From Vibrio sp. CDRSL-10 TSBA (lineage in GTDB: Bacteria; Pseudomonadota; Gammaproteobacteria; Enterobacterales; Vibrionaceae): 64,000 bases of DNA. The position numbers and the translations under genes are program-made. The notes under the pieces were generated by a model. The model worked only from the letters and a program-made list of their open reading frames with translations, was not told the origin of the DNA and ran no database searches. Location: contig CP155566.1 in NCBI GenBank assembly GCA_039696685.1, positions 3,100,001 to 3,164,000 on the forward strand, given 5' to 3'. Below are positions 160 to 64,000 of this stretch, piece by piece (the stretch's first letter is position 1; every line of letters begins with the position of its first letter).

Positions 160-1591
160 TTACTGAATCACAACTTTCGGTGTGACGAAGATCAGCAGCT
201 CACCTTTACCGCTTTGCTGGTAACTGCGCCGGAACAATGCCCCCAGCCACGGCAAATCCCCCAGCAGCGGCACCTTATCCACCGTATGGCTGACACTGTG
301 CTGGAAAATACCGCCCAGCACCACGGTTTCACCGTCATTAACCAGCACCTGGGTACCTATACGCTGCGTGTTGATCGCAACCGCTTCACCGGTTCCGGTC
401 TGCACGACTTCGCCCGGCCGGTCCTGGGTGACATTCAGATCCAGCACCAGGCGATTATCCGGCGTAATCTGCGGTGTCACCTTAAGGCTCAGTACGGCCT
501 TTTTAAACGCCACGCTGGTCGCCCCGCTCGATGACGACTCGAGATACGGAATTTCTGTACCCTGCTCAATAAAAGCCGGCTGCTGATTGGTCGTGATAAG
601 GCGCGGACTAGAGATAATTTCTGCTTTCGACTCACGCTGCAATGCCGACAGTTCAAGATCAAGCAAGGTGTCAGAGCCAAGACGCGCCACCTGAAACGCA
701 ATCGTGGAAGCATTCAGTGAGGTGGCGGCCAGATTGACGTTGAGCCGGTCTTCCAGTGCAAGTTCGCCCGACTCATCCGCCAGGGCTGCGCCGGCAAACA
801 GATTCTCCTCCAGCGAAGCCCCTATCCGGCCATGCGCGGGAGAAGAATGAAATCCCCAGCGTACCCCAAGTTCATCTAAATCACCTTCATTGATACTGAC
901 AATACGCGCTTCAATCTGCACCTGCTTCACCGGCACATCGAGCGCTCGGACCATTTTCGCGATATCCGCAACGTTCGGCGCCAGATCGCGCACCAGCAGT
1001 GCATTGGTACGTTCATCAACACTGAGCGAAACCGCGCTCAGACAGCAAGCCAAAATTGCCGTCCGTCGCAATGATCGCCGCCATGTCCTGCGCTCTGGCA
1101 TAATGCACCGTGACCACCTGGCTCTGCAGCGGCGCCAGGAGCTGCGCCTGCTCCCTGTGATGCTGCGCCTGACGGGCAAACTCATCCTGCGGCGCAATCA
1201 GCATCACACCATCCGCCAGTTGCATCTCCAGCCCACGGTGGCGCAGGATAAGATTGAGTGCCTGCTGCCAGGTAACGTCCTCCAGGCGCAGCGTCAGCTC
1301 ACCCTGTACACTATCGGACACCACCAGATTGAACCCCTGATAATCCGCCAGCAACTGCAGCACACTGCGCAGCTCTATCGTCTGAAAGTTAAGTGAGATC
1401 CGGTCGCTTTCACCGGGCTTAGCTGGGCTGATATTCTTCGCCGCGCTGGTCGCCTTTTCGCTCGCCAGCACGGTCAGCGGACCGCTCACCGCCAGCATCA
1501 GCATCACTATCAGCAGGCGCAGCAGAGACACAACCGGCAATCTCAGCCAGGCAAAACGACTTACCGGTTCAGGACATCGCATCATATTCAC
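160..1591 (-). CDS. pilQ: Type IV pilus secretin PilQ (frameshifted as sequenced)
   Basis: Outer-membrane secretin through which the type IV (competence-type) pilus passes. The repaired product is about 476 aa. It has an N-terminal hydrophobic signal segment (about residues 18-42, ending near VLAS), a secretin/TonB N-terminal domain (ISLNFQTIELRSVLQLLADY), an N1-type domain and a C-terminal secretin domain (VEARIVSINEGDLDELGVRW, then VPLLGDLPWLGALFR). It is shorter than many PilQ proteins, and I see no room for AMIN domains. It is the last gene of pilMNOPQ and overlaps the pilP stop. The start is a GTG at 1591, with an ATG at 1585 as the alternative. One extra base in GAAAC at 1028-1032 (plus strand) splits the frame; reading GAAC restores it through LLSERGSLSVDERTNALLVR. 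Confidence 0.9.
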
Positions 1592-2073
1592 AGTGCGCTC
1601 AACTCCATTTTGATAGTCAGTGGCTCGGGCCGGTTACAGTTTTTATTCTCAGCCAGCACCAGCCACAACGAGCGAGCATCGATTCGTTCCACCCGCGCGT
1701 CTGCCAGTTGATCGCCGACCTTAACTTGCACCAGTTGCCCGGCCTGAATTTCAATCACAGCCAGGCGTTGCTGCTCATTACCTAGCACGGCTTTCAATAA
1801 CCAACCGCCCTCAGCAGGCCATGCTTCATCCTCCGGCCGCGGCAAAGGCAACACATTTCGGCAGAGCTCGGAAGCATCATCGGCAGTGGACGGTACTGCA
1901 AACGGATTACTGACCGCGCGATGGCGCTGGGCATCCGCTCCGCTCAACGGCTTTGCTTCGGCGGCAAAAGAGTCGGCAGTAAAGGGGGCGGCGGCGAAGA
2001 CACAATGTCCAGTCAGCACCAGCACCGCAGGCAATAGTCTATGGCTGAGACGCCGCATTCCTGATCTAGTCAT
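1588..2073 (-). CDS. pilP: Type IV pilus assembly lipoprotein-like protein PilP
   Basis: Inner-membrane-anchored periplasmic protein that links the PilMNO platform to the PilQ secretin. It has 161 aa, an N-terminal hydrophobic signal segment (LLPAVLVLTGHCVFA, possibly lipidated at the Cys), a linker, and a C-terminal beta domain (WLLKAVLGNEQQRLAVIEIQ). The ATG at 2073 overlaps the pilO stop and has GGGAG five bases upstream; an internal ATG at 2058 is a less likely start. The reading frame is intact. Confidence 0.88.
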   Translation of the reverse strand: MTRSGMRRLSHRLLPAVLVLTGHCVFAAAPFTADSFAAEAKPLSGADAQRHRAVSNPFAVPSTADDASELCRNVLPLPRPEDEAWPAEGGWLLKAVLGNEQQRLAVIEIQAGQLVQVKVGDQLADARVERIDARSLWLVLAENKNCNRPEPLTIKMELSAL

Positions 2074-2671
2074 CCTCACTCCCGAACTCATCATCACGCT
2101 GAAACTCATCAGCCAGATAGGTAAAACCGCGGGCACGGATCTGCAGCCGTGACTGATCCGGGGAGGTGCGCTGCCAGTGCACCTCAGCCAACAGCACACC
2201 AAAAGGCAGTGCCGCCAGATCGCGCATAAACTGCTGCAGCGCCGGATACTCACCACTGGCTTCCAGACGCAGTGGTACCCGCAGCAATTCCTCCTCAGGC
2301 TCCGCGGTTTGCCATTCAAGCCGGGTCAGCACCAACTGATGCTGCGCAGCCAACTGACTGATGTGATTTAACAAAGGCGCCAACTGGTGCTGACGAGGAA
2401 ACTGGCGCAGTAACGCCTCATGACTCGCCTGCAGCTCGGCATATTGGTCCTGCAAAGTCTGCAGTTCATGTTTCGCCTCAGCCAGTTGACGCAGATCCTG
2501 GCTGAGCTGCTCAATTTTCTGCTCGAGGGATGAGGCAAACCGCTGCTGAGGCAGCAGGTGCCACTGATAACCGACAGCTGCCACAATCAGCACCAGCAGC
2601 AGACGCAGCAACCACTGCGCGCCGGGTGGCCATTGCGCCATCTCACTGAGATCAAAGTGTAAATCACCCAT
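2066..2671 (-). CDS. pilO: Type IV pilus inner-membrane platform protein PilO
   Basis: Bitopic inner-membrane protein that pairs with PilN in the pilus alignment complex. It has 201 aa: a short cytoplasmic start (MGDLHFDLSEMAQWPPGAQ), a membrane helix (about residues 20-40, LLRLLLVLIVAAVGYQW), a periplasmic coiled coil rich in Glu, Gln and Leu, and a ferredoxin-like C-terminus. The ATG at 2671 overlaps the pilN stop as TAATG. The frame appears fused to pilN as sequenced, but that fusion comes from the extra base in pilN and is not real. Confidence 0.88.
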   Translation of the reverse strand: MGDLHFDLSEMAQWPPGAQWLLRLLLVLIVAAVGYQWHLLPQQRFASSLEQKIEQLSQDLRQLAEAKHELQTLQDQYAELQASHEALLRQFPRQHQLAPLLNHISQLAAQHQLVLTRLEWQTAEPEEELLRVPLRLEASGEYPALQQFMRDLAALPFGVLLAEVHWQRTSPDQSRLQIRARGFTYLADEFQRDDEFGSEDD

Positions 2672-6985: not shown

Positions 6986-7907
6986 TCAGGCAGCGGTCAG
7001 ACCGGTGGCGGTTTTCGGCAGCGCCATCAAACAGTCATGCATTGCCGCAGCCAGAGTCTCAAAACGCTGTCTGAGCGGAGAGCCCGGACGGTACACCAGT
7101 ACCAGGCGGCGCGAAGGAACCGGATTGACCGCTTTAACATAGCACACACCGTCTTTGACCTTTTCTGCAGGCAGCGACAGCTCAGGCAACAGAGTAATGC
7201 CGCCTCCGGCCGCAACCATATTGCGCAGCGTCTCCAGACTGGTGGCCTTAAAACGTTCATCATCCTGAGCGCCAGCAGCAAAACAGAAACCCAGCGCCTG
7301 ATCACGCAGGCAGTGACCATCGCCCAGAGCCAGTACGGTTTTGCCTTTCAGCTCCATCATGTCGACTTCATCACGCTCAGCCCACTCATGGCCGCACGGA
7401 ATCGCAATACTCATCGGTTCGACATAAATTTCCAGCTCTTTAAACGGTTCGGTTTCAGCAACCGACGCCAGAAACCAGACAATCGAGCTTCCCCTCTTCA
7501 AGCTGATGGATCAGCTGCTGGGTTTGTGCTTCATGCAGATAGAGTTCCAGCTCGGGAAAACGCTGTTTCAGAGTCGGTACAATACGCGGTAATAAATAGG
7601 GTCCCAGAGTCGGAATAAAGCCGATGTGCATCGGTCCGGTCATCGACCCACCCTGCCCGCTGGCCATATCTTTAAAGGTTTTCACCTCACTCAGAATCCG
7701 CTTAGCCTGCTCGACCAGCTGCAAACCGGCATCGGTAAACAGCACCCGCCGGCTGCTGCGCTCAAGCAGCACCGTACCCAGTTCATCTTCCAGCTTACGA
7801 ATTTGACCACTCAGGGTCGGCTGGCTGACGAAGCAGGCCTCAGCCGCTTTGCGGAAATGCTTATGCTCGGCCAAAGCTACCAAGTATTCAAAATCACGAA
7901 TGTTCAT
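6986..7907 (-). CDS. oxyR: Hydrogen peroxide regulator OxyR (frameshifted as sequenced)
   Basis: LysR-family activator of peroxide defence. The repaired product is about 306 aa, the usual length. It has an N-terminal winged HTH ([21 protein letters not shown]) and a regulatory domain with the redox Cys pair in [14 protein letters not shown] (about residues 199 and 208), which forms a disulfide on oxidation. One extra base in GAAAC at 7471-7475 (plus strand) splits it; GAAC gives [15 protein letters not shown]. It is divergent from the peroxiredoxin-glutaredoxin gene, with an OxyR-like site between them. Confidence 0.92.
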
Positions 7908-8050: not shown

Positions 8051-8792
8051 ATGTTTGTATCGAAAGAAGGTCAGTCAGTCCCTCAGGTTACGTTCCCGAC
8101 TCGTCAGGGCGATCAATGGGTCAATGTCAGCAGTGATGAACTGTTTGCTAACAAAACCGTGATTGTATTCAGCCTGCCGGGCGCGTTCACCCCGACCTGC
8201 TCCAGCAGTCACCTGCCACGCTACAACGAACTGTTTTCGGTCTTCAAAGATCATGGCGTCGATGACATCATCTGTATGTCGGTCAACGATACCTTTGTGA
8301 TGAATGCCTGGAAAAACGATCAGGAAGCCGAAAACATCACCTTTATTCCTGATGGTAACGGCGACTTCACCTCAGGCATGGGCATGCTGGTCGACAAGCG
8401 TGATCTTGGTTTCGGTCAGCGTTCATGGCGCTACAGCATGCTGGTACGTAACGGTATCGTGGAAAAAATGTTTATCGAACCCAACGAACCGGGCGACCCG
8501 TTTAAAGTCTCTGACGCCGATACGATGCTGAGCTACCTGGCGCCGGAGTTTAAAACCCAGGAATCGATTACGGTATTCAGCAAACCGGGCTGTCCGTTTC
8601 TGTGCTAAAGCCAAGCAGAATCTGATTGACGCCGGTCTGCAGTATGAAGAGGTGATTCTGGGTAAAGATGCCACCAGCGTCAGCCTGCGCGCCATCACCG
8701 GTCGAACCACAGTGCCGCAGGTGTTTATCGGTGGTAAACATATTGGTGGCAGCGAAGAGCTGGAAAGCTACTTAATCAGCCGCAGCGCATAA
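8051..8792 (+). CDS. Hybrid peroxiredoxin-glutaredoxin (frameshifted as sequenced)
   Basis: Glutathione-dependent peroxidase that couples a Prx5-type peroxiredoxin to its own glutaredoxin reductant. The repaired product is 246 aa. The peroxidatic Cys50 lies in [10 protein letters not shown], and the glutaredoxin domain (about residues 172-246) has CPFC at 181-184, TVPQVFIGG and IGGSEEL. One extra T in GTTTC at 8596-8600 falls inside the CPFC codons; reading GTTC restores KPGCPFCAKAKQ. The ATG at 8051 starts the Prx domain directly; longer upstream starts have no homologous extension. It is divergent from oxyR and probably under OxyR control. Confidence 0.93.
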
Positions 8793-9504: not shown

Positions 9505-11404
<1,900 letters not shown>

Positions 11405-11644: not shown

Positions 11645-12863
11645 TTATTTTTTCGCGGCGGCGTTCAACGCTCTGATACGACTAGACAGAGAGTACAGAC
11701 GGATGAAACCGCCCGCGTGGCTCTGGTCGTAAACTTCATCCGCGCCAAAGGTTGCAAACTCTTCTGAGTATAGGCTGTTTTCAGAACGTTTTTGCGTTGC
11801 TGTCGCCTGACCTTTGTAAAGCTTGATCACAACTTCACCGTTCACATCCTGCGCCAGTTCATCTGCCGCAGCGAACACTGCCTGACGCAGTGGAGTAAAC
11901 CAACGACCATCATACACCAGGTGTGATGCTTTAATGCCCAGCTCTTCACGGAATTCAAATGAAGTTTTATCCAGTACCAGTTGCTCAACAGCACGCAGAG
12001 CTTCCATGATGATGGTGCCCCCCGGAGTTTCGTAACAACCACGAGACTTCATACCAACCAGACGGTTTTCCACGATGTCGATACGACCCACACCGTGTTT
12101 AACACCTTTTTCGTTCAGGGCAACCAGTGCGTCGTATGGAGACAGTTTCCTGACCGTCAACCGCGACCACTTCGCCTTTAGCCACTTTCAGCGTCACGTA
12201 TTCTGCTTCGTTTGGTGCTTGCTCAGGATCCACTGTCCATGCCCAGCAATCGTCGTTTGGTGCATTCCAGGTGCTTTCCAGAACGCCACCTTCAGTCGAG
12301 ATGTGCCATGCGTTAGCATCACGTGAGTAGATCTTGGTCAGTGACGCCGCACAAGGAATGTTGCGCTCTGCCAGGTAATCCAGACACTCTTCACGGCTGA
12401 CCAGATCCCACTCACGCCATGGTGCAATCACGTGCAGATCCGGTGCCAGTGCAGCAAATGCGCCTTCGAAACGGATTTGGTCGTTACCTTTACCGGTACA
12501 ACCGTGTGCCAGTGCATCCGCACCCACTTTACGTGCCACTTCTACCTGAGCTTTAGCAATCACAGGACGTGCCATTGATGTACCCAGCAGGTATTTACCT
12601 TCGTAGTAAGCACCGGTTTTCAGAGTTGGGTAGATGTAGTCTTTAACCAGCTCTTCTTTCAGGTCAACCACGTAACACTCAGATGCACCTGATGCGATCG
12701 CTTTCTCTTCGATACCAACCAGTTCGTCAGCACCCTGACCCACATCGGCCACAAAGGCAACCACTTCACAGCTGTAGTTCTCTTTCAGCCATGGAATGAT
12801 CACAGATGTATCCAGACCGCCAGAATAAGCGACAACCACTTTATTTACTTGAACTTTGCTCAT
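11645..12863 (-). CDS. argG: Argininosuccinate synthase (frameshifted as sequenced)
   Basis: Condenses citrulline and aspartate with ATP to argininosuccinate. The repaired product is 405 aa, the short form typical of vibrios. It begins with the ATP pyrophosphatase P-loop ([18 protein letters not shown]) and has the signature [15 protein letters not shown]. One extra T in GTTTC at 12145-12149 splits the frame; GAAC on the coding strand gives [20 protein letters not shown]. It lies 180 bp downstream of argB, with a large inverted repeat in the gap. Confidence 0.94.
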
Positions 12864-13844: not shown

Positions 13845-14850
13845 TCACACCAAAGCGGTCAGTTCATCGAAACCGTAGTGTATGTTCAGACATTGCATCG
13901 CTTGACTCGATGCGCCTTTTAATAAGTTGTCAATTGCCGAGACCACGATGACGTGCTCGCCCTGCACCTTCCAGCCGATATCACAGAAACGGAGTGAACT
14001 CAACATCCTGAATACGCGGCAGAGTGCTGGTATGCAAACGTACCGCCGGCTTGTCGCCGTATGCCTCAGCAAAGGCCTGTGCAACCTGCTCAGCGCTGAC
14101 ACCCGCCGCCAGTTTCATGGTGATGGTCGCCAGGATCCCACGCTTAAAGTTACCCAGGTGCGGCGTGAAAATCACATCACAACCGAGGTGAGTCGCAATT
14201 TCCGGCTGGTGACGATGGGTAAACACACCGTAAGGCTGCAGGCTGACTTCACAGAAACTGTTGGTCATGGTGGCTTTACGGCCTGCGCCCGTTACGCCGC
14301 TGACCGCATTAATCACCGGCCACTGCGCTTTATCGACCAGACCCGCTGCCAGCAGTGGTTTAATCGCCAGTTGCGAAGCCGTCGGATAACAACCGGCTAC
14401 CGCGACCAGCTGACTATTAAGAATAGCCTCTTGGTTCCACTCAGCCAGTCCGTACGCCGCTTCCGCCAGCCAGTCACCATGCTGATGCTGGAAACCGTAA
14501 TACTGATCATAAAAACCTTCACTCTGCACCCGGTAAGCACCTGACAGGTCAAACACCTGGCAGTTGTTGGCCAGGAAAACCGGCGCCAGATCGTGACTCA
14601 CTTCGTGTGCCGTCGCGAGAAATACCACATCACACTCTTGCGCGACCTGCTCCACATCCGTCAATGCCTGCACCGGCATATCGACCAGCCCCGCCAGTTT
14701 ACCGTGCAACTGGGCGATCGACTTTCCTGCATCGACGCTGTTGGCGGAAACGTATAAACCTGATAGCGTGAGCTCTGGGTGTTTGTGAACCATAAGAGCA
14801 AGTTCTGCTCCGGTGTAACCGCTTGCGCCGATAATGGTGGTTTTTAGCAT
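13845..14850 (-). CDS. argC: N-acetyl-gamma-glutamyl-phosphate reductase (frameshifted as sequenced)
   Basis: NADPH-dependent reductase, the third step of arginine synthesis. The repaired product is 334 aa, the family length. It shows the Rossmann start [17 protein letters not shown] and the catalytic Cys in [14 protein letters not shown]. One extra base in GAAAC at 13986-13990 (plus strand) splits the C-terminal part; on the coding strand GTTC gives [17 protein letters not shown]. It heads the argCB operon, divergent from argE. Confidence 0.93.
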
Positions 14851-15029: not shown

Positions 15030-16167
15030 ATGCAATTACCGAGTTTCCTCGAAGTCTATGAAGGCTTGATTTCGACCCCGTCGATCAGTTCCACGGACCC
15101 GCAATGGGACCTGGGCAATGAAAAGGTGATTGCCAAACTGGCGGACTGGCTTACTGCGCTTGGCTTTAGCGTTGAAATCGACCAGGTCGCTCCCGGCAAA
15201 CAGAACCTGATTGCCAAAAAGGGTCAGGGCGAAGGCGGCCTGCTGCTGGCCGGTCACAGTGATACCGTGCCATTTGACGAAGGACGCTGGAATTTTGATC
15301 CCCATGCCCTGACTCAGGCCGACAACCGCTTTTACGGTCTCGGCACCGCTGATATGAAAGGCTTCTTTGCGTTTATCTTCGAAGCGGTGAAAAAAGTCGA
15401 CTGGAACAAGCAGACCAAACCCCTGTACGTGCTGGCGACCTGTGACGAAGAAACCACCATGCTCGGTGCACGTCACTTTACTGAAAACGCACCGTTTCAG
15501 CCCGATTACTGCATCATTGGCGAACCGACCAGTCTGGTGCCGATCTACGGCCATAAAGGTCACGTTGCCAATGCGATTCGCGTGACCGGTAAGTCGGGCC
15601 ACTCCTCCAACCCGGCGCTGGGCGTCAATGCGATCGAAATCATGTATGAAGTGATGTTCGCGATGATGCAACTGCGCGACAAGCTGATTAAAGAGTACCA
15701 GCATCCGGGATTTGAAATTCCGCACCCGACACTTAACCTCGGCCATATCCACGGCGGTGACACACCAAACCGCATCTGTGGCTGCTGTGAACTGCACTAT
15801 GATGTACGTCCGCTGCCGGGCATCAGCCTGGATGGTCTGGATAACATGCTGCGCGGTGCCCTGAAAGAGGTACAGGAAAAATGGCCGGGCCGGATTGAAG
15901 TTGAACCTTTGCATGATGCGATTCCGGGTTATGCCTGTGATCACGACCATCCGTTTCGTGACTGACGTCAGTCAAATCTGTGAGCAGCCGGCGCAAACCG
16001 TCAATTACTGCACTGAGGCGCCGTTCCTGCAACAGCTGTGTCCGACCCTGGTGCTTGGTCCGGGCTCGATTGATCAGGCGCACCAGCCGGATGAGTTCCT
16101 CGCCTTTGACTTCATTGATCCGACCATCAATGTGTTATCAAAAGCCATGGTTAAATACTGCTTTTAA
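15030..16167 (+). CDS. argE: Acetylornithine deacetylase (frameshifted as sequenced)
   Basis: Zinc M20-family hydrolase that releases ornithine from N-acetylornithine. The repaired product is 378 aa. Metal-binding motifs are [17 protein letters not shown] and [13 protein letters not shown], with the catalytic Glu pair in [15 protein letters not shown]. One extra T in GTTTC at 15953-15957 removes the last 70 residues; GTTC gives [16 protein letters not shown]. It is transcribed away from argCBGHA. Confidence 0.93.
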
Positions 16168-16222: not shown

Positions 16223-16395
16223 GTAAGAAATTTTCAACAAAATTGGGGATTTGACTTAACAAGTGTTCAAATGATTGCTCAGCGGCATAAATGGAATTTT
16301 AGTATGTCGGGTTTGACTGTAGTGGACAAACATAGTTAGATTGTGTACTTAAGAAAAGAACAATGGATGTAATTTTTTTACAAGGCAGGATGACA

Positions 16396-19090: not shown

Positions 19091-19379
19091 ACTTGATAAT
19101 CTTATTGAGAATAATATCAGTTTTTCATTTGAAAACCGTATTGTATTCTACTTTATGCTTATTATTTAGATATACTACTGCTGCTCGATGACGGCATTTA
19201 ATAACAACAAGTCGCAGAGCGATACGTAGAGTATCAACCCTAGGTGATAAACGGCTTTAAGGTGACATGACAGCAGATTTCTGCTGACCAGAATCAGGCA
19301 CTGCATCAGAGAGTACCGCAGAGTACCCACGATGGCTGAATCTGGTGTAAAAAGTTTATTAACCATTTGGATTGAAGAC
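19091..19379 (+). promoter_or_regulatory. aphA promoter and leader region
   Basis: An AT-rich block with a TATACT -10-like hexamer at 19171-19176, then about 200 bp of apparent leader. In Vibrio cholerae and V. harveyi this leader is a target of Qrr sRNAs and the promoter is controlled by HapR/LuxR; I did not identify those sites base by base. Confidence 0.45.
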
Positions 19380-19920
19380 ATGTCATTACCACACGTTATC
19401 CTTACTGTTCTTAGCACTCGCGATGCAACCGGCTACGATATCACCAAAGAGTTTTCTGCGAGCATTGGCTATTTCTGGAAAGCCAGCCACCAACAAGTCT
19501 ACCGTGAACTGAATAAAATGGGTCAGCAGGGCCTGGTAACTTGTGTCCTGGAACCTCAGGAAGGCAAACCTGACCGTAAAGTTTATTCAATTACGGACGC
19601 AGGCCGCAGCGCTCTGGGCGAATGGTTCGACCAGCCGACCGCGCATCCGACAGTAAGGGATGAATTCAGTGCTAAATTGATGGCTTGTGCCGTTCAGCCT
19701 GCAGAAACCTTACCGGGCTCAACTGGGCGAGCTGATTGAAGAATCCCGTAAGCTGGTGACTCACTACAAAGAAATTGAGTCGGCTTACTACGCCAATCCG
19801 GCGGTAATGGATAAGCAGCAACGTCTTGAGCGTCTCACGCTGCGCCGTAATCTGCTGCTTCGCCAGGCCTGGATCAACTGGGCAGAAGAAGTGATTGCGG
19901 AAATGGATGCAATGGCATAA
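19380..19920 (+). CDS. aphA: Quorum-sensing master regulator AphA (frameshifted as sequenced)
   Basis: PadR-family winged-helix regulator that governs the low-cell-density programme in vibrios and activates virulence genes in V. cholerae. The repaired product is 179 aa, the same length as V. cholerae AphA. It starts MSLPHVILTVLSTRDATGYD and has the winged helix YFWKASHQQVYRELNKMG and a C-terminal antiparallel coiled-coil dimer domain. One extra base in GAAAC at 19704-19708 splits it; GAAC gives AVQPAEPYRAQLGELIEES. An in-frame ATG at 19332 exists, but the family start is 19380. Confidence 0.94.
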
Positions 19921-28074: not shown

Positions 28075-28103
28075 AAAAACCAGCGCCTGAGCGCTGGTTT
28101 TTT
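28075..28103. terminator. Bidirectional terminator frdD / efp
   Basis: Stem AAAAACCAGCGC / GCGCTGGTTTTT with A and T runs on either side, between convergent genes. Confidence 0.88.
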
Positions 28104-43332: not shown

Positions 43333-43365
43333 AATGCTTTCCTTCAATTCGGTGGCTGGCAGCGC

Positions 43366-44737: not shown

Positions 44738-45746
44738 CTAGATTGCACGTGGCGGAGCCGCGCTGTCGCGCACCACCAATTGGGTTTCCAGTAAGCGTGA
44801 ACCGGCCTGAACATCATTGCCACGCAGTAATTCCAGCATCATCAACATGGCCTGACGGCCAATCTCATAACGCGGCTGGGAAATGGTGGTCAGCGGTGGA
44901 TCGCAGTACTGGGCAAACTGAATGTCATCGAAACCGACCACTGACAGATCCTGCGGCACTCGTGTACCCAGACGTTTGGCTTCCTGAATTGCCCCAATCG
45001 CCATGGTATCGTTGTGGCAGAAAATCGCCGTCGGCGGCTCGGACAGCGCCAGCAGCTGACGCACAGCCTGAGCACCCGATTCAAATGAGAAATCACCACT
45101 CACACTGTAGTCCGGATTGCGGGTAATCCCCGAGCGGCGCAGTGCCTGCTGGTAACCCTGCTCGCGGAACTGGCACAGCACGGCCGTATCCGGGCCGGCA
45201 ATTTGCGCAACCCGCTTGTGGCCCATCTGAGTCAGATAGTTAACCGCTTCAAACGCCGAGGTCAGGTTATCAATATGTACCGTTGGCAACTCCAGTTTCC
45301 GGGGCAAACTCACACGCCATTACCATCGGCGGCAGGTTTTTCTGTTCCGGCTTACTGACATCAAACGGCAGGTCGGTGCCGAGCAGCAGCATACCGTCCG
45401 CCTGCTTGGTGAACACCAGATTCACAAATGAGCTTTCACGTTTTTTCTGCTGACCGCTGTCACCCAGCAACACCAGATAACCGTGCTCCATCGCCGCATC
45501 TTCAATGCCGCGGATGATCTCGGTGTAATACGGGTCACAGATATCCGGCACTATGGCCACAATCGTTTTGGACTCATTGCGACGCAGATTGCGTGCGAGA
45601 GAGTTAGGGGAATAACCAGCTTCTAACACCGCCTCTTCAACCCGTTTACGGGTCGAGGAAGAGACTTTCTCGGGATTCATCAGAGCACGCGACACTGTCG
45701 CCGTTGATACGCCTGCAAGCTGGGCAACATCCTTCATTGTCGCCAT
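44738..45746 (-). CDS. cytR: LacI-family repressor CytR (frameshifted as sequenced)
   Basis: Repressor of nucleoside uptake and catabolism that works with CRP; in vibrios it also affects competence. The repaired product is 335 aa: HTH MKDVAQLAGVSTATVSRAL, hinge, and periplasmic-binding-like effector domain. One extra T in GTTTC at 45295-45299 splits it; GAAC on the coding strand gives ACEFAPELELPTVHIDNL. Located between priA and ftsN, as in E. coli. Confidence 0.92.
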
Positions 45747-46070: not shown

Positions 46071-48273
<2,203 letters not shown>

Positions 48274-49094: not shown

Positions 49095-50376
49095 ATGTCC
49101 GACGACAATCGTCAAGAATTAAGCGCGGAAGAAGCATTCCGTCAACGTGCTCTGGATTACCACGCGCAGCCGACCCCGGGTAAAATCGCGGTCTCGATCA
49201 CCAAACCGGCTGACTCAGCCACTGATCTGGCGCTGGCTTACAGCCCGGGCGTGGCAGAACCAGTACGTGAAATCGCTCAGAATGTCGATAACGTTTACAA
49301 ATACACCGCCAAAGGCAACACAGTGGCGGTGATCTCAAACGGCACCGCGATCCTTGGCCTGGGTAACCTGGGACCAATGGCCTCTAAACCGGTCATGGAA
49401 GGTAAAGCGCTGCTGTTCAAACGTTTTGCCGGCCTCGATTCCATTGATATTGAAGTTAAACACCGCACCATCGATGAGTTTATCGACACCGTCGCTAACA
49501 TCGCTGACACCTTCGGCGGCATCAACCTGGAAGACATCAAAGCGCCGGACTGTTTTGAGATCGAGCGTCGCCTGATTGAACGTTGTGACGTGCCAGTGTT
49601 TCACGATGACCAGCACGGCACGGCGATCGTAACCGCTGCAGGCATGCTGAACGCGATTGAACTGCAAGGCAAAGAGCTGTCTGAGTGTGTGATTGTCTGT
49701 CTGGGTGCGGGCGCTGCAGCAGTGGCGTGTATGGAGCTGCTGATTAAGTGCGGTGCGATGCGTGAGAAGATCTACATGCTCGACCGCAAAGGTGTCATCC
49801 ACACCCGTCGTGACGACCTGAACCAGTACAAGCAGCTGTTTGCCAACAACACCGACAAACGCACACTGGAAGATGTGATTGCCGGCGCGGATCTGTTTCC
49901 TGGGTGTATCAGGCCCGAACCTGCTGTCTGCCGACGCGCTGAAGCTGATGGCTGACAAGCCTGTGGTGTTCGCCTGCTCTAACCCGGATCCGGAAATCAA
50001 ACCTGAGCTGGCTCACGCCGTGCGTGATGACCTGATCATGGGCACCGGACGCAGTGACTACCCGAACCAGGTCAACAACGTGCTGTGTTTCCCGTTCATC
50101 TTCCGTGGCGCGCTGGATGTACGTGCCAGCGAAATCAATGATGAGATGAAACTGGCGGCGGTCGAAGCGATTCGACAACTGGCCAAAGAAGAAGTGCCGG
50201 CAGCCGTACTGCAAGCCGCAGGCAGTGACAGCCTGACCTACGGTCATCAGTACATTATTCCTAAACCAATGGATCCGCGCCTGCTGCCTCGCGTGGCCAA
50301 AGCGGTCGCACAAGCTGCGGTTGACTCTGGTGTCGCACGTATCGAGATGCCGCTTAACTATATGCAGGATAAGTAA
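49095..50376 (+). CDS. Malic enzyme, short form (frameshifted as sequenced)
   Basis: Oxidative decarboxylation of malate to pyruvate. The repaired product is 426 aa: it matches the malic-enzyme part of MaeB (VAVISNGTAILGLGNLGPMA; CDVPVFHDDQHGTAIVTAAG; VCLGAGAAAVACMEL) but lacks the phosphotransacetylase-like C-terminal domain of E. coli MaeB. Cofactor NAD or NADP not decidable by eye. One extra T in GTTTC at 49895-49899; GTTC gives GADLFLGVSGPNLLSADAL. Confidence 0.9.
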
Positions 50377-51213: not shown

Positions 51214-52381
51214 ATGACCAATCGCAAGCCAGCCACCATCGCGGTTTCGCACCGGTATTGAATCTGACACTCAGTACCACGCCGTTGTTCCACCCATTTA
51301 TCTCTCAACCAATTATGGCTTTCCTGCATTTGGTGAAGTGCCAAAATACGACTACACCCGCTCCGGTAACCCGAACCGCGGCCTGCTGGAACAAGCCCTG
51401 TCTGAACTGGAATCCGGCGCGGATGCGGTAGTCACCAACTGCGGCACATCAGCACTTAACCTGTGGGTCTCGGCATTCCTGTCGCCGGGCGAAATCATTA
51501 TTGCACCACATGACTGCTATGGTGGTACTTACCGTCTGTTCAATACCCGCGCCAAGAAAGGCGATTTCAAAGTTTTGTTTGTTGACCAGTCTGACGACGC
51601 GGCAATGGCCGCAGCTTTTGCCCAGAAGCCAAAACTGGTGCTGCTGGAAACGCCGTCTAACCCGCTGGTACGTGTAGTGGATATTGAGAAAATCTGTCAG
51701 CAGGCGAAAGCAGTCGGCGCTCTGGTCGCGGTCGACAATACCTTTTTGACGCCTGTGTACCAAAAGCCGCTGCTGCTTGGTGCCGACTTCGTCGTGCACT
51801 CGACCACTAAATACCTCAATGGTCACTCGGATGTGATCGGCGGTGTGATCATCAGTAAAGACGCCGAACACGCCACCGAGCTGGCATGGTGGGGTAACTG
51901 TATCGGCGCCACCGGCACGCCGTTTGACAGCTACATGACTCTGCGTGGCCTGCGCACCCTGGGTGCACGTATGCGCGTGCATGAAGAGAGCTCGCAGCAG
52001 ATCCTCGATTACCTGCAAGGCCAGGAGCTGGTCAAAGTGATTTACCACCCTAGCCTGCCAAATCATCCGGGCCATGACATCGCCAAGAAACAGCAGCTTG
52101 GCTTTGGTTCAATGCTGAGCTTTGAATTCGGCGGTTCATTCGAGCAGCTGAAATACTTTGTCGGTGAACTGCAGCTGTTCTCACTGGCCGAATCACTGGG
52201 CGGTGTGGAAAGCCTGGTGTGTCATCCGGCCAGCATGACTCACCGCGCGATGGGCGAAGAAGCGCTGGCCGAAGCCGGCGTCTCTCAGCAGTTGCTGCGT
52301 CTGTCGGTGGGTCTGGAAGATGCGACCGATCTGATTGCCGATCTCGACCAGGCCTTCAACAAAGCCAAGGAGGCCTTTTAA
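51214..52381 (+). CDS. metB: Cystathionine gamma-synthase (frameshifted as sequenced)
   Basis: PLP enzyme that joins O-succinylhomoserine and cysteine. The repaired product is 388 aa: TRSGNPNRGLLEQALSELE, the PLP Lys in VHSTTKYLNGHSDVIGG. One extra T in GTTTC at 51244-51248 removes the first ten codons from frame; GTTC gives ATIAVRTGIESDTQYHAVV. AAAGGA lies before the ATG at 51214. It overlaps metL (TAATG). Confidence 0.94.
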
Positions 52382-54794
52382 TGTCGGTTTCACGTCAGCT
52401 GCATAAATTTGGTGGTAGCAGTCTTGCGGATCCGGAATGTTATCAACGAGTCGCGCACATTCTGCGTGACTATTCTCAGGCCGACGATCTGGTGGTGGTT
52501 TCTGCAGCCGGTAAAACTACGAACCGCCTGATTGAATTTCTTGAAGCGCTCAACAAAGACGGCCGCGCCGCGCACGAAGCGCTGCAGGCCCTGCGCCAGT
52601 TTCAGGTCCAGTTGATTGAAGGTTTGCTGGAAGGCGAAGCAGCAGATCACCTGCTGACCGAGCTGAGCGGCGAGTTCGTCGCACTGGGCGAGCTGACTGC
52701 ACCGCTTAGCAAAGCGCAGCAAGCCGCGGTTTCTCGGTCACGGCGAACTCTGGTCTGCCCGCCTGCTGGCGGCGCTGCTTAACCAGCAGCAATTGCCGGC
52801 TGTGGCTCAGGACGCACGTGCGTTTCTGCGCGCTGAAACCGGCACTCAGCCGGAAGTCGATCGCGCCCGCTCTTACCCGTTACTGAAAGAAGTCCTGGCC
52901 CAGCATGCCCATCACCGGGTGATCATCACCGGCTTTATGGCGCGCAACGAGCAAGGCGAAACCGTACTGCTCGGCCGCAACGGTTCTGACTACTCAGCAA
53001 CCGTGATCGGTGCTCTGGCCGATGCCGAACGCGTCACCATCTGGAGTGATGTGGCCGGCGTGTACAGCGCCGACCCCCGTCTGGTGTCGGATGCCTGTCT
53101 GCTGCCATTACTGCGCCTGGATGAAGCCAACGAACTGGCCCGTCTGGCCGCTCCTGTGCTGCACAGCCGTACCTTACAACCCGTCGCACAAAGCGCGATG
53201 GAGCTGCAGCTGCGTTGCAGCTACCAGCCAGAGTCGGGGTCGACCCGGATTGAGCGTGTGCTGGCCTCCGGCCGCGGTGCCAAAATCATCACTTCACTGG
53301 ACGAAGTCCTGCTGCTGGAACTGGCCTTTGGCCAGGGTCACGACTTTGCCCGTGCTCAGGCTGAAGTACTGGAAAAACTCAAACGTGCTCAGCTTGAACC
53401 GCTGGCTTTCGAGCTGCAGGCCGATCAGCACTGCCTGCGTCTGGCTTACACCACAGAGATCGCCTCCGGCGCGCTCTCCTTGCTGCAGGATGTGGCGATT
53501 GAAGCCGAGATTCGCCTCAAAGAGGGCTTCGCTCTGGTCGGCGCTGTCGGTGCGGGTGTCACCAAAAATGCCCAGCACAGCTACGGCTTTTTCCAGCAAC
53601 TGAAAAATGCGCCGGTCGAATTTATCAGCGAGGCCGAATCCGAGCTGAGCCTGGTTGCGGTGCTGCGTCAGTGTGATGTCAACCCGCTGGTGACCGGTCT
53701 GCATACCCAGCTGTTCCAGGCCCAGAAGCGGGTCGGACTGGCGTTGTGCGGCAAAGGCAACATCGGCTCAAGCTGGCTGAAACTGTTCGCGGAACAAAAA
53801 GACGACCTGGAAAAACGCTACGGCATGAACTTCGAGCTGGTGGCCGTGATCGACAGCCAGGCGTATCTGTTTAAACCGCAGGGTATTGATGCCGCCTCGG
53901 TACTCAACAGCTACGCCGATGAAGCGCAGCCGAACGACGGTCATACCTGGCTTAAACAGCTGGGCGCCATCCGGGGCTATGATGAAGTGATTGTGCTCGA
54001 TGTTACCGCCAGCGCCGACATTGCCAGCCTGTATCCGCAAATCGCCGAACAGGGCATGCACCTGATCTCTGCCAACAAAGTGGCAGGTTCTGCTTCGGGG
54101 GATTACTACTACCAGGTTAAAGATGCCTTCGCCAAGATCAGCCGTCACTGGCTGTACAACGCCACCGTAGGTGCCGGTCTGCCGATTAACCACACGGTCC
54201 GTGATCTGCGTGAGAGCGGCGACGACATCACCGCCCTGTCGGGCATTTTCTCCGGCACTCTGTCCTGGTTGTTCCAGCAATATGACGGCAGTGTACCGTT
54301 CAGCGAACTGGTTGATCTGGCCTGGCAGCAAGGACTGACTGAACCGGACCCGCGTAATGACCTCGACGGCTCAGACGTGATGCGCAAACTGGTGATTCTG
54401 GCGCGCGAATCCGGCCTGGACATCGAACCGGACAGCGTCAAAGTCGAGTCGCTGGTACCGGCCGAAACTGCAGGATTTGTCGCTGGATGATTTCCTGGAT
54501 CGCAGCCAGCTGCTCAACGAGCGTCTGGCCGAGCGTCTGGCCCGCGCCCAGAAGCAGGACAAGGTGCTGCGTTACGTTGCGCGTCTGGAAAAAGACGGTA
54601 AAGCTACGGTCGGTGTCGAAGCGCTGGATAAAGAGCACCCGCTCGCCAACCTGCTGCCGTGTGACAACATCTTCGCCATCGAGAGTAAATGGTACCGCGA
54701 TAATCCGCTGGTGATTCGTGGCCCGGGGGCCGGACGCGAAGTTACCGCCGGTGCGATCCAATCCGATCTCAACCGTCTGGCTGGTCAGCTGTAA
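52381..54794 (+). CDS. metL: Aspartokinase II / homoserine dehydrogenase II (two frameshifts as sequenced)
   Basis: Bifunctional enzyme for the first and third steps from aspartate to homoserine. The repaired product is 803 aa: kinase domain start LHKFGGSSLADPECYQRV, ACT-like middle, dehydrogenase domain VGLALCGKGNIGSSWLKLF and LISANKVAGS. Two extra bases: GTTTC at 52739-52743 (GTTC gives AVLGHGELWSARLLAAL) and GAAAC at 54464-54468 (GAAC gives VPAELQDLSLDDFLDRS). Confidence 0.94.
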
Positions 54795-55037: not shown

Positions 55038-56008
<971 letters not shown>

Positions 56009-59056: not shown

Positions 59057-59966
59057 TTACCAGCCCTGAAATTTTTGCTTCCTTTCCACTCCGAATACCA
59101 CGGAGTAAGGGTCCTGGTGAATCAGCACATCGGCGCCCGGAAATGCCTTGCGCAGCTTCGCTTCGACAATATCGGAAATACGGTGTGCTTCAATCAGGGG
59201 AATATTGTCATCGAGTTCCAGATGCAACTGGATAAATCTTACAGGCCCGGACATACGGGTACGCAGCTGATGCACCCCCATCACCCCTTCCACAGATAAT
59301 GAAATAGTGCGGATCTGAACCAGCTCTTCATCCGGCAGTTTATGATCCAGCAGAGTATGCACCGCGTGGTAAGCCATCCGGTAAGCGCTGTATAAAATGT
59401 AGATACCAATACCGACCGCAAATACCGCATCAGCCTGCTTGATACCGAACCAGCTCAGCCCCAGCGCAACCATGATCGCCGCATTCATCAGTAAATCGGA
59501 CTGATAATGCAGTGAATCAGCCGCAATCGCCTGGCTGCCGGTTTTGGCCACCACGGCCCGTTGAAACATCACCAGAGCCGCCGTGACCACCATGGCAAAC
59601 GCACTGACATAAATACCGTATTCCGGAGACTGCAATTCATGCGGGCGGAAAAAGCGGTCGACCCCGTTCAGAATCAGAAAGCAGGCAGAACCGGAAATAA
59701 ACATAGCCTGAGCCAGCGCAGCCAGCGATTCGGCTTTACCGTGCCCGAAGGTATGCTCCCGGTCAGCGGGCTGCAGCGAATAGCGCACCACCACCAGGTT
59801 GACCACCGACGCCGCAATGTCGAGCACCGAATCAATCAGAGAAGCCAGCAGGCTGACCGAAACCGGTCACCCACCAGGCGGCAATTTTACAAATCAGCAG
59901 CAGTGTCGCGACCGCAGTGGCCGTCCACGCCGCGGTGGTGACAAGTCGGGCGTATTCCTGTTTCAT
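59057..59966 (-). CDS. fieF: Cation diffusion facilitator FieF (frameshifted as sequenced)
   Basis: Inner-membrane Fe2+/Zn2+ exporter. The repaired product is 302 aa with six helices, metal site [16 protein letters not shown] and the C-terminal cytoplasmic domain [20 protein letters not shown]. One extra base in GAAAC at 59859-59863 (plus strand); GTTC on the coding strand gives [21 protein letters not shown] copy 2 starts 36 bp upstream of the ATG and has probably removed or displaced its promoter. Confidence 0.93.
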
Positions 59967-60001: not shown

Positions 60002-61293
60002 GGTTCATCGCGGATTGGCGGGAACTTAAAACAAAAACGGTAGTAAGTGATAAGGTTACATCGCCAAACACAACCTTACACAAACTACCGTTTTCATGCC
60101 GAATCATACTTTCCTATCCTCGTTCTGGGAAGGCTTTCATGTCGTAAAGTCTGTACAAACGTCTTCTCTCATCACGATTACTCTCCAACCCAGCACGACT
60201 GCTCGATGTTCATGTGGGCAACATGTTCAAGCCATACATGATTATCAGTGGCGCACGATTAAGGAAGCGACGATTCTCGGCGTACCCGTCGAGCTATCCC
60301 TACAAACAAGGCGTATAAAGTGCCCTGACTGCGGTATCAAAACCGAATCTATTTCTTGGCTTGAACCTTTTGCTCGCCTGACTAACCGCTTAAGACGTTA
60401 CATTGAGCAGTTGCTGCCTCTTCTTCCTATCAAACATATCGCCCAGATGACGGGGGTTCATTGGCATACGATTAAGGCGATAGATAAACGTCGGCTACAA
60501 CATGCGGTGCCAGAGGTTAACTGGGCAGAGCTGAGACAGCTGGTCATGGATGAGTTTGCTCTCTTCAAGGGACATCGTTATGCCACTGTTATCGCGGATG
60601 CTAAGACGCATCAAGTGCTTTGGATAGGCGTTGGACGCAGCCGAAAAGATATCCGTCCCTTCTTTGAATTACTCGGTGAGCATGGCCAGAACATAGAAGC
60701 GGTTGCAATGGATATGAATACGGCTTTCGACCTCGAAGTGCAGCGACATTGTCCTAACGCCCGCATTGTGTACGATTTATTCCATGTGGTCGCAAAATTT
60801 GGTCGGGAAGTGATGGATAGAGTCAGAGTTGACCAAGCTAATCAACTCAAACAGGACAAGAAAGCGCGCCAATGGGTGAAACGTTCACGCTGGGTTTCTC
60901 CTCAAAAACAGAGGTAATTTAGACAGTAAACAGGAGAGCTATCTGAGTGAGATACTGAGTATGAACAAAGACTTAATGGTGACGTATTTACTTGGCTCTC
61001 AGCTAAAAGAGTTATGGAGGTGCGAGTCAGAAAGCGAAGCGGAAGACTTATGGGACGTATGGTGGGAGCAAGTTCAAGAAAGCGGGATCAAGCCGCTTAT
61101 GGACTTCGCGAGAAAGCTCAAACCGTATCTTCATGGCATCGTTGCTTCTGCAAGCTACCCACTCAATACCTGTACGCTCGAAGGGATAAACAACAAGATA
61201 AAGTTAATCAAACGAATGGGCTACGGCTACCGAGATATCGATTACTTTTTTTTAAAGATAAAAGCGGCTTTCCCCGGAAAGCCGCGATGAACC
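60002..61293 (+). mobile_element. ISL3-family insertion sequence, copy 2
   Basis: 1,292 bp, same ends and coding content as copy 1 but inverted relative to it. Perfect 8 bp target duplication TTAATTAT (59994-60001 and 61294-61301). It is inserted between the cpxP terminator and fieF, with the transposase reading away from fieF. Confidence 0.96.
60096..61290 (+). CDS. ISL3 transposase, copy 2 (frameshifted as sequenced)
   Basis: Protein frames identical to copy 1: zinc ribbon, HTH and DDE core. One extra T in GTTTC at 60894-60898 gives the same 273 and 109 aa split; GTTC gives SRWVLLKNRGNLDSKQE and a 397 aa product. If the extra base is a read error, the element should be active. Confidence 0.92.
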
Positions 61294-62164: not shown

Positions 62165-62851
62165 ATGGCGCACATTCTTCTTATTGATGACGACACCGAG
62201 CTCACCAGCCTGTTAAAAGAGGTCCTGAGCTATGAAGGGTTTGAGGTATCCGAGGCCAACGATGGCGAGGCGGGATTACAGGCGGTAGGTGAACAGACCG
62301 ATCTGATCCTGCTCGATGTCATGATGCCGAAAATGAACGGTATGGAAACCCTGAAAAAGCTGCGCGAAAACTGGCAAACGCCGGTCCTGATGCTGACCGC
62401 CAAGGGTGAAGAAATTGACCGCGTGATAGGCCTTGAGCTCGGCGCAGACGACTACCTGCCCAAACCATTCAGTGACCGTGAACTGCTGGCACGCATCCGC
62501 GCTATTTTGCGCCGCACCAATCCGCATCAGCCGGCCAAAACGTCTGATGTAATCGAGTGTCAGGATCTGCAGCTTTATCCCGGAAAGCAAGAAGCCTATT
62601 GTCAGGGTGAGCTGCTCGATCTGACCAGCACTGAATTTGCCCTGCTGGCCCATTTCGTCCAGAATCCGGGCGAAACCCTGACGAAAGAGTCGCTCAGCCT
62701 GGACGTGCTCGGCAAACATCTGGCCGCGTTTGACCGCGCCATCGACATGCATGTCTCGAACCTGCGCAAAAAGCTGCCCGAGCGCAGCGATGGCAAACCG
62801 CGAATTAAAACTCTGCGCGGACGCGGCTATCTGATGGTGCTGGAGGATTGA
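62165..62851 (+). CDS. cpxR: Envelope-stress response regulator CpxR
   Basis: OmpR-family regulator, 228 aa. Receiver domain with acidic DDD near the start, phosphorylated Asp in LILLDVMMPKMNG and Lys in DDYLPKPFSD, then a winged-helix effector domain (LTSTEFALLAHFVQNPGETL; RGRGYLMVLED). The stop overlaps the cpxA ATG. Confidence 0.96.
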   Translation: MAHILLIDDDTELTSLLKEVLSYEGFEVSEANDGEAGLQAVGEQTDLILLDVMMPKMNGMETLKKLRENWQTPVLMLTAKGEEIDRVIGLELGADDYLPKPFSDRELLARIRAILRRTNPHQPAKTSDVIECQDLQLYPGKQEAYCQGELLDLTSTEFALLAHFVQNPGETLTKESLSLDVLGKHLAAFDRAIDMHVSNLRKKLPERSDGKPRIKTLRGRGYLMVLED

Positions 62852-64000
62852 TGCGCTTACCCAAGTTCAACAACCTGTACGGCCGTATTTTTGCCATCTT
62901 CTGGTTTACCATGATGCTGGTGGTGATTGCTGTGTTGTCGCTGCCCCATCTTGATCCGCGCAAATCACGCGATATGCCGGCCGAGGCATACCAGCGCATG
63001 CTGCAACATAAAGAGGCGCTCGAAGATCGCTTTAGCGGCGATAAGAACCTGGCCCGAATCATCAAGGAAACTGGAGAGCCGCGCCGACGAACCGCATGAG
63101 AAAGGACCGCGCTTTTTTGTTACCGATCAGGAAGGCAATATCCTCACCACACGCAAACACCCTGATTTCAAACTGAAAGCACTACGTAACTTTACTACCA
63201 GTATCGAATCGGTGGAACAACCGCAACAACGCCTATATGGCCGCTATATGATAGCCGGACCAGCACCGATCAGCCTGGCAGGACAGGATTTACTGCTGTA
63301 TGTCGGCCTGCGCTGGGATCAGCCGCCACCATTTCTGCTGCGCCTGTTTGATCGCCCGCTGCAGCTGTTACTGGCCGTGATGCTGGTCAGCACACCGCTG
63401 CTGCTGTGGCTGGCCTGGGCACTGAGCCAGCCGGCACAACGCCTGGCTCAGGCCGCACAACGTGTCGCGCGTGGTGAATTTGAGGTAGATGCCAGTCTGG
63501 AAAAAGGCACCACTGAGTTTCGCCAGGCCGGACGCAGCTTCAACCAGATGGTAGAAGCGGTCAATCAGATGATTTCCGGTCAGCAGCGTTTGCTGTCCGA
63601 CATCTCGCACGAGCTGCGCTCTCCGCTGACCAGACTGAGAATGGCCAATGCACTGGCCACCCGTAAGCAGGGTTCCAGCCCGGAACTGGAGCGCATCGAT
63701 ACCGAAGCTCAGCGTTTGGAGCAGATGATTGGTGAACTGCTGGAATTGTCGCGCATGCAGACCAACAGTCAGATGAGTCGCGAAGTACAGCCATTGAGCA
63801 GCCTGTGGGAAGAACTGCTCAGCGATGCCCAGTTTGAAGCAGAGCAGATGAACAAGACTCTGACCATGGAAGACATTCCGAACCGCCATATCTCAGGCAA
63901 TCCGCCACTGCTGATGAGCGCGCTCGAGAACATAGTGCGTAACGCGATTCACTATGGCCACGACAAAATCGCGGTCCACTTCTCGGCTTCAGCCCAGCAG
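62851..64000 (+). CDS. cpxA: Envelope-stress sensor kinase CpxA (partial; frameshifted as sequenced)
   Basis: Inner-membrane histidine kinase. The visible part holds membrane helix 1 (residues 13-32), a periplasmic sensor domain, helix 2 (LLLAVMLVSTPLLLWLAWAL), HAMP, the phosphorylated His in LLSDISHELRSPLTRLRMA and the start of the ATPase domain (ALENIVRNAIHYG). One extra base in GAAAC at 63067-63071; GAAC gives RIIKELESRADEPHEKGP. The gene continues past the window. Confidence 0.94.

Follow-up and report, generated by a model that had tools for sequence, protein, structure and literature searches.

Why should so many housekeeping genes in one stretch of a Vibrio chromosome seem to be broken, each by an extra base and in the same short motif? 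The window, as we call the whole 64,000 nucleotides analysed here, comes from Vibrio sp. CDRSL-10 TSBA (contig CP155566.1, positions 3,100,001 to 3,164,000). A first-pass annotation had counted 30 insertions in it, each turning GTTC into GTTTC or GAAC into GAAAC. Codon-aware, frameshift-tolerant alignment of the window against the intact ORFs of two relatives, G046 and G056, gave 29 and 28 '+1' calls, respectively; when one duplicate and one unshared call off the motif are excluded for G046, and one unshared off-motif call for G056, 27 distinct sites are left, every one of them common to both relatives and located in GTTTC/GAAAC (Table 1). Thus 27 of the 30 insertions stand; for the one placed in pilN, no '+1' at the motif was found against homologues 24-29% identical. 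There were six '-1' calls against G046 and five against G056, the one common to both lying 12 codons from an alignment end. The two insertion sequence copies, judged from their own ORFs rather than against an intact copy, are identical over 1,292 bp, and both ORFs stop at residue 273, half-way through a DDE domain, with a GAAAC and a GTTTC at most 40 bases away.

Table 1. Features of the window broken by '+1' in GTTTC/GAAAC (alignment to relatives), with the two insertion sequence copies
Feature	Position	Strand	Observation
pilQ-like secretin gene	163..1815	-	one break; TIGR02515
oxyR	7022..7907	-	one break
peroxiredoxin-glutaredoxin gene (name from first-pass annotation)	8051..8783	+	one break; no NCBIfam match for ORF 7907-8608
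argH(A)	9508..11401	-	one break
argG	11648..12863	-	one break
argC	13848..14850	-	one break
argE	15030..16164	+	one break
ppc	16348..19028	+	two breaks
PadR-family regulator (aphA in first-pass annotation)	19332..19917	+	one break; PF03551
gpsA	20953..21985	-	one break
epmA	23443..24415	-	one break
efp	28100..28684	-	one break
ISL3-family insertion sequence, copy 1	30406..31697	-	ORF cut off early near GAAAC/GTTTC
modF-like	31719..33165	-	one break; match below curated cut-off
groEL	33352..34966	-	one break
DUF3135 gene	36330..36675	+	one break
tpiA	37822..38590	+	one break
hslU	42003..43347	-	one break
cytR	44741..45746	-	one break
priA	46074..48273	-	one break
malic enzyme-like	49095..50367	+	one break; match below curated cut-off
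metB	51248..52378	+	one break, close to start
metL	52381..54791	+	two breaks
metF	55111..55996	+	one break
fieF-like cation efflux gene	59060..59860	-	one break, close to start
ISL3-family insertion sequence, copy 2	60002..61293	+	same sequence as copy 1
cpxA	62848..64000, continues past window edge	+	one break

The motif holds 104 of the 117 '+1' calls in a first, larger stretch (C2:2900001-3164000; chance 4.3% each, p = 6e-126) and 140 of 160 in a held-out one (C2:2500001-2900000). Together, the 533 kb of coding sequence aligned in the two stretches have 277 '+1' breaks, 244 of them at the motif. The error rate per GTTC/GAAC site in this DNA is 5.8% (103/1,768) in the first stretch and 5.7% (140/2,452) in the held-out stretch. 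Both stretches together have 33 '+1' calls off the motif and 32 '-1' calls; 10 of 13 and 8 of 12 of these, respectively, are no more than 24 codons away from an alignment end in the first stretch, and 9 of 20 and 8 of 20 within 12 codons in the held-out stretch. Sense GTTC is hit at 49 of 761 sites and sense GAAC at 54 of 1,007, in agreement with the annotation's remark that both strands are about equally affected, and the plus strand counts 102 GTTTC and 141 GAAAC error sites. The presence of motif-bound one-base insertions in the assembly is therefore confirmed as an observation. Programmed frameshifting was rejected as their origin, because both the sense and the antisense strand are affected, as are many kinds of housekeeping gene, and the motif excess is found on both contigs. 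Since the insertions stand in the assembled sequence, they might also be genuine mutations of a decaying or hypermutating genome; however, the breaks affect 97 of the first stretch's 239 genes, including the window's core genes groEL, tpiA, efp, gpsA and priA, and a single motif and a regular spacing are involved, so that we give this explanation next to no credence.

The annotation had proposed instead that a modification of GAAC/GTTC is misread by the basecaller, and had suggested a genome search for dnd genes. That search revealed an island of dndBCDE and dptFGH at C2:1196009-1211314. Profile searches place homologues of dndC, dndD, dndE and dndB next to each other in it, with 551 bits for TIGR03183, a match above cut-off for TIGR03184, 583 bits for PADLOC DndB and a TIGR03185 match in two pieces of 247 and 235 bits (cut-off 246), while the dptFGH restriction partner, which accompanies many but not all Dnd systems, matches TIGR03238, TIGR03236 and TIGR03237, all above cut-off. 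The dndD gene is itself split in the assembly by a break at a GTTTC/GAAAC motif. The dptH gene also occupies two frames, and as its aligned break is at least 18 bases from the nearest motif, this may be a genuine gene loss. No cysteine desulfurase (DndA or IscS) turned up in the searched ORFs of the island. In the set and the order of its genes (dndBCDE, a DGQHR gene and dptHGF) the island agrees with E. coli C1, whose Dnd and Dpt proteins are 40-70% identical and whose DGQHR protein is about 30% identical to those of the present host, a Vibrio; compared with an E. coli island of the same gene order, DndC is 68% and DndB 67% identical. Within E. coli, dndC is present in 204 of 5,426 complete genomes. 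Across the order, dndD scored above cut-off in 22 of 394 genomes and was in two frames in CDRSL-10 TSBA only, which makes this signature rare among species representatives; one further genome of the 394 has a dndD fragment at a contig end.

The sequence around the errors points the same way. Dnd phosphorothioation had been described in the annotation as having no clear wider consensus, a description that fails here, as flanks count strongly. The 243 error sites differ from the other 3,977 in C at -2 (.51 against.38), A or C at -1 (.71/.47), T at +1 (.53/.20), A at +1 (.03/.39) and G at +2 (.39/.32). C[GTTC]T is the best context, [GTTC]A is almost never errored, and the ranking of contexts is nearly unchanged in the held-out DNA. 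An alignment-free count, relative to G046, finds an excess of GTTTC in the favoured contexts on both chromosomes, and also in another Vibrio genome, G085; the [GTTC]A class shows no such excess, nor do G056 and the 23 other genomes. By EcoWI-seq, the Dnd sites of Salmonella enterica Cerro 87 prefer C at -2, A or C at -1, T or G at +1 and G at +2 (PMC9521924). Our error sites share most of this bias, the exception being G at +1, which is not enriched (.20/.24); T is favoured there, followed by a mildly enriched C. Mapping in E. coli B7A found no consensus beyond the core (PMC6459556), and an in vitro assay saw little effect of flanks.

Distance between sites matters as well. No two of the 243 sites are closer than 532 bp, where about 47 gaps below 500 bp are expected, and the gaps peak at 1.5-2 kb. 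None of the 1,547 motifs that lie no more than 500 bp from an error is itself errored, compared with 25 of 36 C[GTTC]T motifs that lie 1.5-2.5 kb from one. A lateral-inhibition model with a reach of about 1.2 kb fits the spacing; the exclusion zone, of about 0.5-1.2 kb, is repeated in both stretches and hinted at in G085. The distance to GATC, compared with a Dam-parking idea in view, does not differ (79 vs 71 bp, p = 0.59), and adjacent marks show no pattern in their orientation, 81 pairs pointing the same way and 95 opposite ways.

These results bear on two further explanations. The strong dependence of the errors on context could reflect a plain k-mer error of basecaller or assembler that involves no modification at all. 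But of the 37 +-3 nt contexts that recur and have an error, 36 are mixed, being errored at some places and clean at others, which is not what a plain k-mer error would give; the empty zone around each error and the absence of the errors from 23 other genomes in the stretches tested likewise speak against it, and we regard it as very improbable. Somewhat less remote, and still improbable, is an overlooked methyltransferase that methylates a base of GAAC/GTTC, in place of phosphorothioation. Base modifications are known to give systematic nanopore errors, according to the available text of PMC10687267. Against methylation stand the small share of errored sites (5.8%, with the proviso that errors stand in for marks and may miss some), the way in which sites exclude one another over about 1 kb, the similarity of the flanks to those of published Dnd sites and the dnd genes in both affected genomes; restriction-target base methylation is typically above 95%, according to a review. 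The proposed modification is hence supported by the island, the flanks and the mixed contexts, and its phosphorothioate form is preferred to a methyl mark. We consider it very probable that the extra bases arose in sequencing or in consensus building, as errors at GpsAAC/GpsTTC marks set by the strain's own Dnd system.

The second affected genome, G085, has dnd genes too, and its dndC is itself broken at the motif. In 87 kb, the motif holds 17 of 22 '+1' calls (17 of 20 interior ones), and there are 14 '-1' calls; none of the poor-context sites is errored (252 unaffected), and C[GTTC]T does no better than other good contexts (2/32 vs 7/112). By contrast, 23 other Vibrio genomes, a set of 16 (13 with dndC above cut-off) and seven more, gave 0 interior '+1' calls at the motif in 337 kb aligned, whereas the same comparison found the motif in 17 of 17 '+1' calls in 32 kb of CDRSL-10 TSBA. 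Interior here means at least 20 codons from an alignment end in the set of 16 and at least 15 in the set of seven, and aligned lengths are short for some controls (G007, 3.1 kb; G065, 4.6 kb; G200, 8.2 kb, with 0 in the second stretch). The 13 clean controls with dndC may have assemblies polished with short reads, or may bear marks of another kind.

What, then, sets the spacing? We think it likely that phosphorothioate marks inhibit one another, each being surrounded by a soft-edged zone of about 1.2 kb in which DndCDE would seldom or never place another. The long-known partial marking of GAAC/GTTC would then be due mostly to this spacing rule and not to a weak enzyme, and protein-coding DNA would fill much as parked cars fill a kerbside, with a best-context site 1.5-2.5 kb from its nearest mark being marked about 70% of the time and one less than 500 bp away never in this sample. 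If the mark is a phosphorothioate, its even spacing could nevertheless be technical: polishing or the windows used for the consensus might produce it, or it might follow from majority-only calling. All of the evidence is consensus sequence, and exclusivity on single molecules would bar two close majority sites, so that a consensus sharpens the effect; optical mapping does show differences from molecule to molecule, in the available portion of PMC8053081. Yet the detection method recovered 237 of 239 close pairs in random synthetic genes, and both the zone of about 0.5-1.2 kb and the peak at 1.5-2 kb recur in the two stretches, with a hint in G085. Nor do we know of a polishing step that bars two errors 60-500 bp apart. 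A technical origin of the spacing thus seems to us a minority view, to be taken seriously and still rather unlikely.

The 23S rRNA genes are evidence to the contrary, both for the Dnd explanation as a whole and for the spacing rule, and do not fit a simple filling of the chromosome by mutually inhibiting marks. Ten of the 11 copies in the genome were examined and 0 of 10 has an insertion at the motif, the only difference from G046 being a shared one of two bases, where 2.6 errors per copy are expected (P = 0.08 for one copy) and far more if copies are counted separately. G085 has such an insertion in one of 10 copies examined. Strong transcription, or the building of a consensus in repeats, may lie behind the clean copies.

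The errors with their motif, flanks and spacing, and the dnd and dpt genes, are direct observations; sulfur as the mark, a long-read machine fed native DNA as the reader and an inhibition that acts during marking are what we infer from them. DndC, DndD and DndE, with a cysteine desulfurase, would place a sulfur in the backbone following the leading G of GAAC/GTTC, at sites chosen by the four-base core with its flanks and by distance. Each marked site would suppress marking for about 1.2 kb on either side, and therefore give a near-regular spacing of 1.5-2 kb. A single-molecule read of a marked site would gain one base in its run of A or T, and where the majority of molecules are marked, the extra base would be kept in the consensus.

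Such a system would resemble the Dnd (Dpt) systems of S. enterica Cerro 87 and E. coli B7A, which share the GpsAAC/GpsTTC core and mark a minority of sites, 12% of the motif in Cerro 87 by EcoWI-seq (PMC9521924, which lists GAAC, GGCC, GATC and CCA types of motif). With ELIGOS, nanopore errors were found at 3.9-4.4% of GAAC/GTTC motifs in native dnd+ DNA of Cerro 87 and at 0-0.6% after deletion of dndC (PMC9069010). That work compared reads with amplified controls, whereas here the '+1' is left in the finished consensus and is legible without reads. The available text of the Modpolish paper (PMC10687267) likewise describes systematic motif errors in long-read assemblies from DNA modifications outside the training data, the main fault there being mismatches at GCAGC/GCTGG and not indels; the word phosphorothioate does not occur in it. 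The mutual exclusion of marks suggests itself as the new element of this analysis: we found no description of a kilobase exclusion zone in the published accounts of Dnd that we consulted. Wu et al. reportedly described density-dependent phosphorothioation (2020, PNAS), with a constant total density of marks and a genome-wide effect involving GATC sites; theirs is a genome-wide density, ours a local exclusion distance with no effect of distance to GATC. An overall phosphorothioate level that is maintained when sites are redistributed is also mentioned in the accessible part of a review.

Two questions are open in the literature, as far as the available texts of PMC8053081 and PMC9521924 go: the reason for which no more than about a tenth of the motif carries a Dnd mark, and the means by which so few marks let the restriction partner distinguish self from non-self. 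Mutual exclusion of marks would explain the first. A kilobase exclusion rule would thus answer the question of minority marking and make that of self/non-self discrimination testable, as a restriction complex that scans the DNA would presumably meet one mark about every 2 kb. Some published long-read assemblies would, moreover, hold readable maps of phosphorothioation that can be found from broken genes alone, and many genes would falsely appear to be dead in the same assemblies, as do 97 of 239 in our first stretch.

The genome of Vibrio sp. CDRSL-10 TSBA (G000) comprises 4.90 Mb in two contigs, C1 and C2, and among the sets searched its nearest relatives by MrcA identity are the Vibrio genome G046 (88%) and V. 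furnissii CIP 102972 (87%). Frameshift-tolerant, codon-aware alignment of the window with intact ORFs of G046 and of the Vibrio relative G056 gave 29 and 28 one-base insertions ('+1' calls), respectively. Both relatives support 27 distinct sites, and all 27 lie within GTTTC/GAAAC, that is, GTTC/GAAC plus one base. The first-pass annotation had listed thirty frameshifts at this motif; its gene list stands at these 27 sites, while its pilN call was not confirmed. The two identical ISL3 copies are consistent with its frameshift calls there; both of their ORFs stop early at the same point, close to GAAAC/GTTTC. In the pil region, one unbroken ORF holds the PilN and PilO domains, and in the relatives separate ORFs of about 199 aa cover the two halves.

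Features and their coordinates in G000
Feature	Coordinates	Description
PilN/PilO ORF	window 2066-3310	414 aa
ISL3-family insertion sequence, copy 1	window 30406-31697	1,292 bp, identical to copy 2, inverted relative to it
ISL3-family insertion sequence, copy 2	window 60002-61293	
dnd/dpt island	C2:1196009-1211314	dptF, dptG, dptH, an ORF, DGQHR protein; then dndE, dndD, dndC, dndB on the other strand
ORF between dptH and DGQHR gene	L104 (C2:1190001-1210000) 14433-15011	192 aa, no NCBIfam match

The same kind of error is found over longer stretches. Aligned with syntenic G046 (239 genes, 221,892 bases), a first stretch, C2:2900001-3164000, gave 117 '+1' and 12 '-1' (one-base loss) calls; the motif holds 104 of the 117 insertions, against a chance of 4.3% each, and 97 of the 239 genes are broken at it. 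A held-out stretch, C2:2500001-2900000 (323 genes, 311,516 bases aligned), gave 160 '+1' calls, 140 of them in the motif, and 20 '-1' calls. Distinct error sites number 103 of 1,768 GTTC/GAAC sites and 140 of 2,452, respectively; some of the remaining non-motif '+1' and '-1' calls lie at alignment ends.

Read on the GTTC strand, the flanks of the 243 error sites differ from those of 3,977 unaffected sites: C at -2 (.51 vs.38), A or C at -1 (.71 vs.47), T at +1 (.53 vs.20, with A nearly absent,.03 vs.39) and G at +2 (.39 vs.32). Over both stretches, the error rate runs from about 26% in C[GTTC]T down to 0-1% in [GTTC]A. Published EcoWI-seq of Salmonella Cerro 87 found C at -2, A/C at -1, T/G at +1 and G at +2, with 12% of sites marked (PMC9521924), which is a good but incomplete match, as G at +1 is unenriched in G000. 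A study of E. coli B7A reports that there is no extra consensus (PMC6459556), and an in vitro assay reports little effect of the flanks (PMC4515589). Of 37 recurring ±3 nt contexts holding an error, 36 are mixed, errored in some places and intact in others, so something more than the local k-mer determines the errors. An alignment-free measure, GTTTC/(GTTC+GTTTC) per flank class, gave in the favoured classes (defined from the first stretch alone) 0.346 on C1 and 0.302 in other C2 stretches, compared with 0.227 in G046, 0.229 in G056 and 0.245 in 23 other genomes (500 kb); the [GTTC]A class lies at 0.20-0.24 in every genome set compared. This shows that the excess extends to the second chromosome.

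Unexpectedly, error sites repel one another. Against context-weighted draws from the same coding motifs, the first stretch has no gaps below 500 bp (20 expected; smallest gap 777 bp) and 27 of 1.5-2 kb (9.7 expected). The pattern reappears in the held-out stretch, with no gaps below 500 bp (27 expected; smallest 532 bp), three below 750 bp (38 expected; minimum over 3,000 draws, 22) and 35 of 1.5-2 kb (12.5 expected). With both stretches pooled, none of 1,547 motifs at most 500 bp from an error is itself errored (Fisher p = 1e-50). For C[GTTC]T the errored share is 0/57 within 500 bp of an error, 25/36 at 1.5-2.5 kb, 2/4 at 2.5-3 kb and 2/14 beyond, and past 2.5 kb the share drops likewise in other contexts, the poor class aside, for which numbers are too small; the drop arises perhaps because marks in unaligned DNA go unseen. 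Close spacing does not escape the method, which recovered 237 of 239 random insertions into synthetic genes, closely spaced ones included. A model of sequential marking with context weights set by hand, run over a coarse grid rather than formally fitted, fits with an exclusion of 1.2 ± 0.3 kb (misfit 13.0) and does not fit without exclusion (misfit 159).

The first-pass annotation had inferred a GAAC/GTTC modification, and G000 carries a dnd/dpt island on C2, with phosphorothioation genes and their restriction partner. Its gene order is that of the E. coli C1 island, with protein identities of 68% (DndC), 67% (DndB and DndE) and about 40% (DptF and DptG). Both dndD and dptH are split in the assembly, dndD at the motif and dptH, as aligned, 18 bases away from the nearest one. 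At the position of the 192-aa ORF of G000, E. coli C1 encodes a protein of the accessory gene regulator B family together with a short DndB-like gene.

Among 227 Vibrio genomes, 29, G000 included, have dndC over the cut-off. The gene takes two forms in the genus: in 8 genomes it matches in a single piece at 634-679 bits, and in the other form, to which that of G000 belongs, it matches in two parts, mostly at 520-552 bits. In another Vibrio genome, G038 (160 contigs, 91% complete), dndC lies in pieces over two contigs, C41 and C55. We picked the Vibrio genome G085 for testing because its dndC is split; the break is at the motif, and G085 has ORFs that match dnd stretches of E. coli and of genome G143. 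In 87 kb aligned, the motif holds 17 of 22 '+1' calls (17 of 20 interior ones), alongside 14 '-1' calls, and the site rate is 2.9%. None of the 17 motif errors falls in poor contexts, which hold 252 unaffected sites, and C[GTTC]T is no better than other good contexts. The favoured-class measure is 0.339. As far as 17 sites allow, the spacing agrees with G000: no gaps below 750 bp (2.0 expected, P = 0.11) and five of 1.4-2.2 kb (1.4 expected, P = 0.008). The controls were 16 other genomes, of which 13 have dndC, and 7 that lack it; over 337 kb none of their interior '+1' calls fell at the motif, and three '+1' and three '-1' calls lay elsewhere. Both affected genomes carry dnd genes, and dnd genes alone are insufficient for the signature.

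One result runs against this pattern. In G000, 10 of the 11 copies of the 23S gene were examined (for example at loci L189 and L197) and are free of motif insertions, though about 2.6 per copy are expected from context alone; in G085, a motif insertion is present in one of 10 copies. Marking may spare rRNA operons, or consensus building may treat repeats differently.

Nanopore sequencing of dnd+ DNA is already known to produce errors at GAAC/GTTC (PMC9069010). In the literature covered, which did not include the mapping papers of 2014 and 2020, we found no account of assemblies in which phosphorothioate causes '+1' insertions or breaks genes, nor a description of a kilobase exclusion zone, so any priority would be provisional. 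An optical mapping study gives 32% of Cerro 87 distances as 1.5-4 kb and 52% as 4-10 kb, and notes that spots on lambda DNA may contain more than one mark (PMC8053081); such mapping would hardly resolve the kilobase spacing scale.

Errors at Dnd phosphorothioate marks best explain the insertions, the dnd island, the flanks, G085 with the controls and the spacing, taken together. An error would stay in the consensus only where the majority of molecules are marked, and if each mark on a molecule keeps others away, no two majority sites could be close, so that the consensus would display the spacing rule sharply. How marks might inhibit one another can be guessed at. DndD has been modelled as Rad50-like (PMC12193691), from which one may imagine a complex that loads, scans and halts at an existing mark. 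Half-marked sites are a substrate in vitro (PMC4515589); alternatively, few enzyme copies combined with inheritance of marks via half-marked sites might keep the marks apart.
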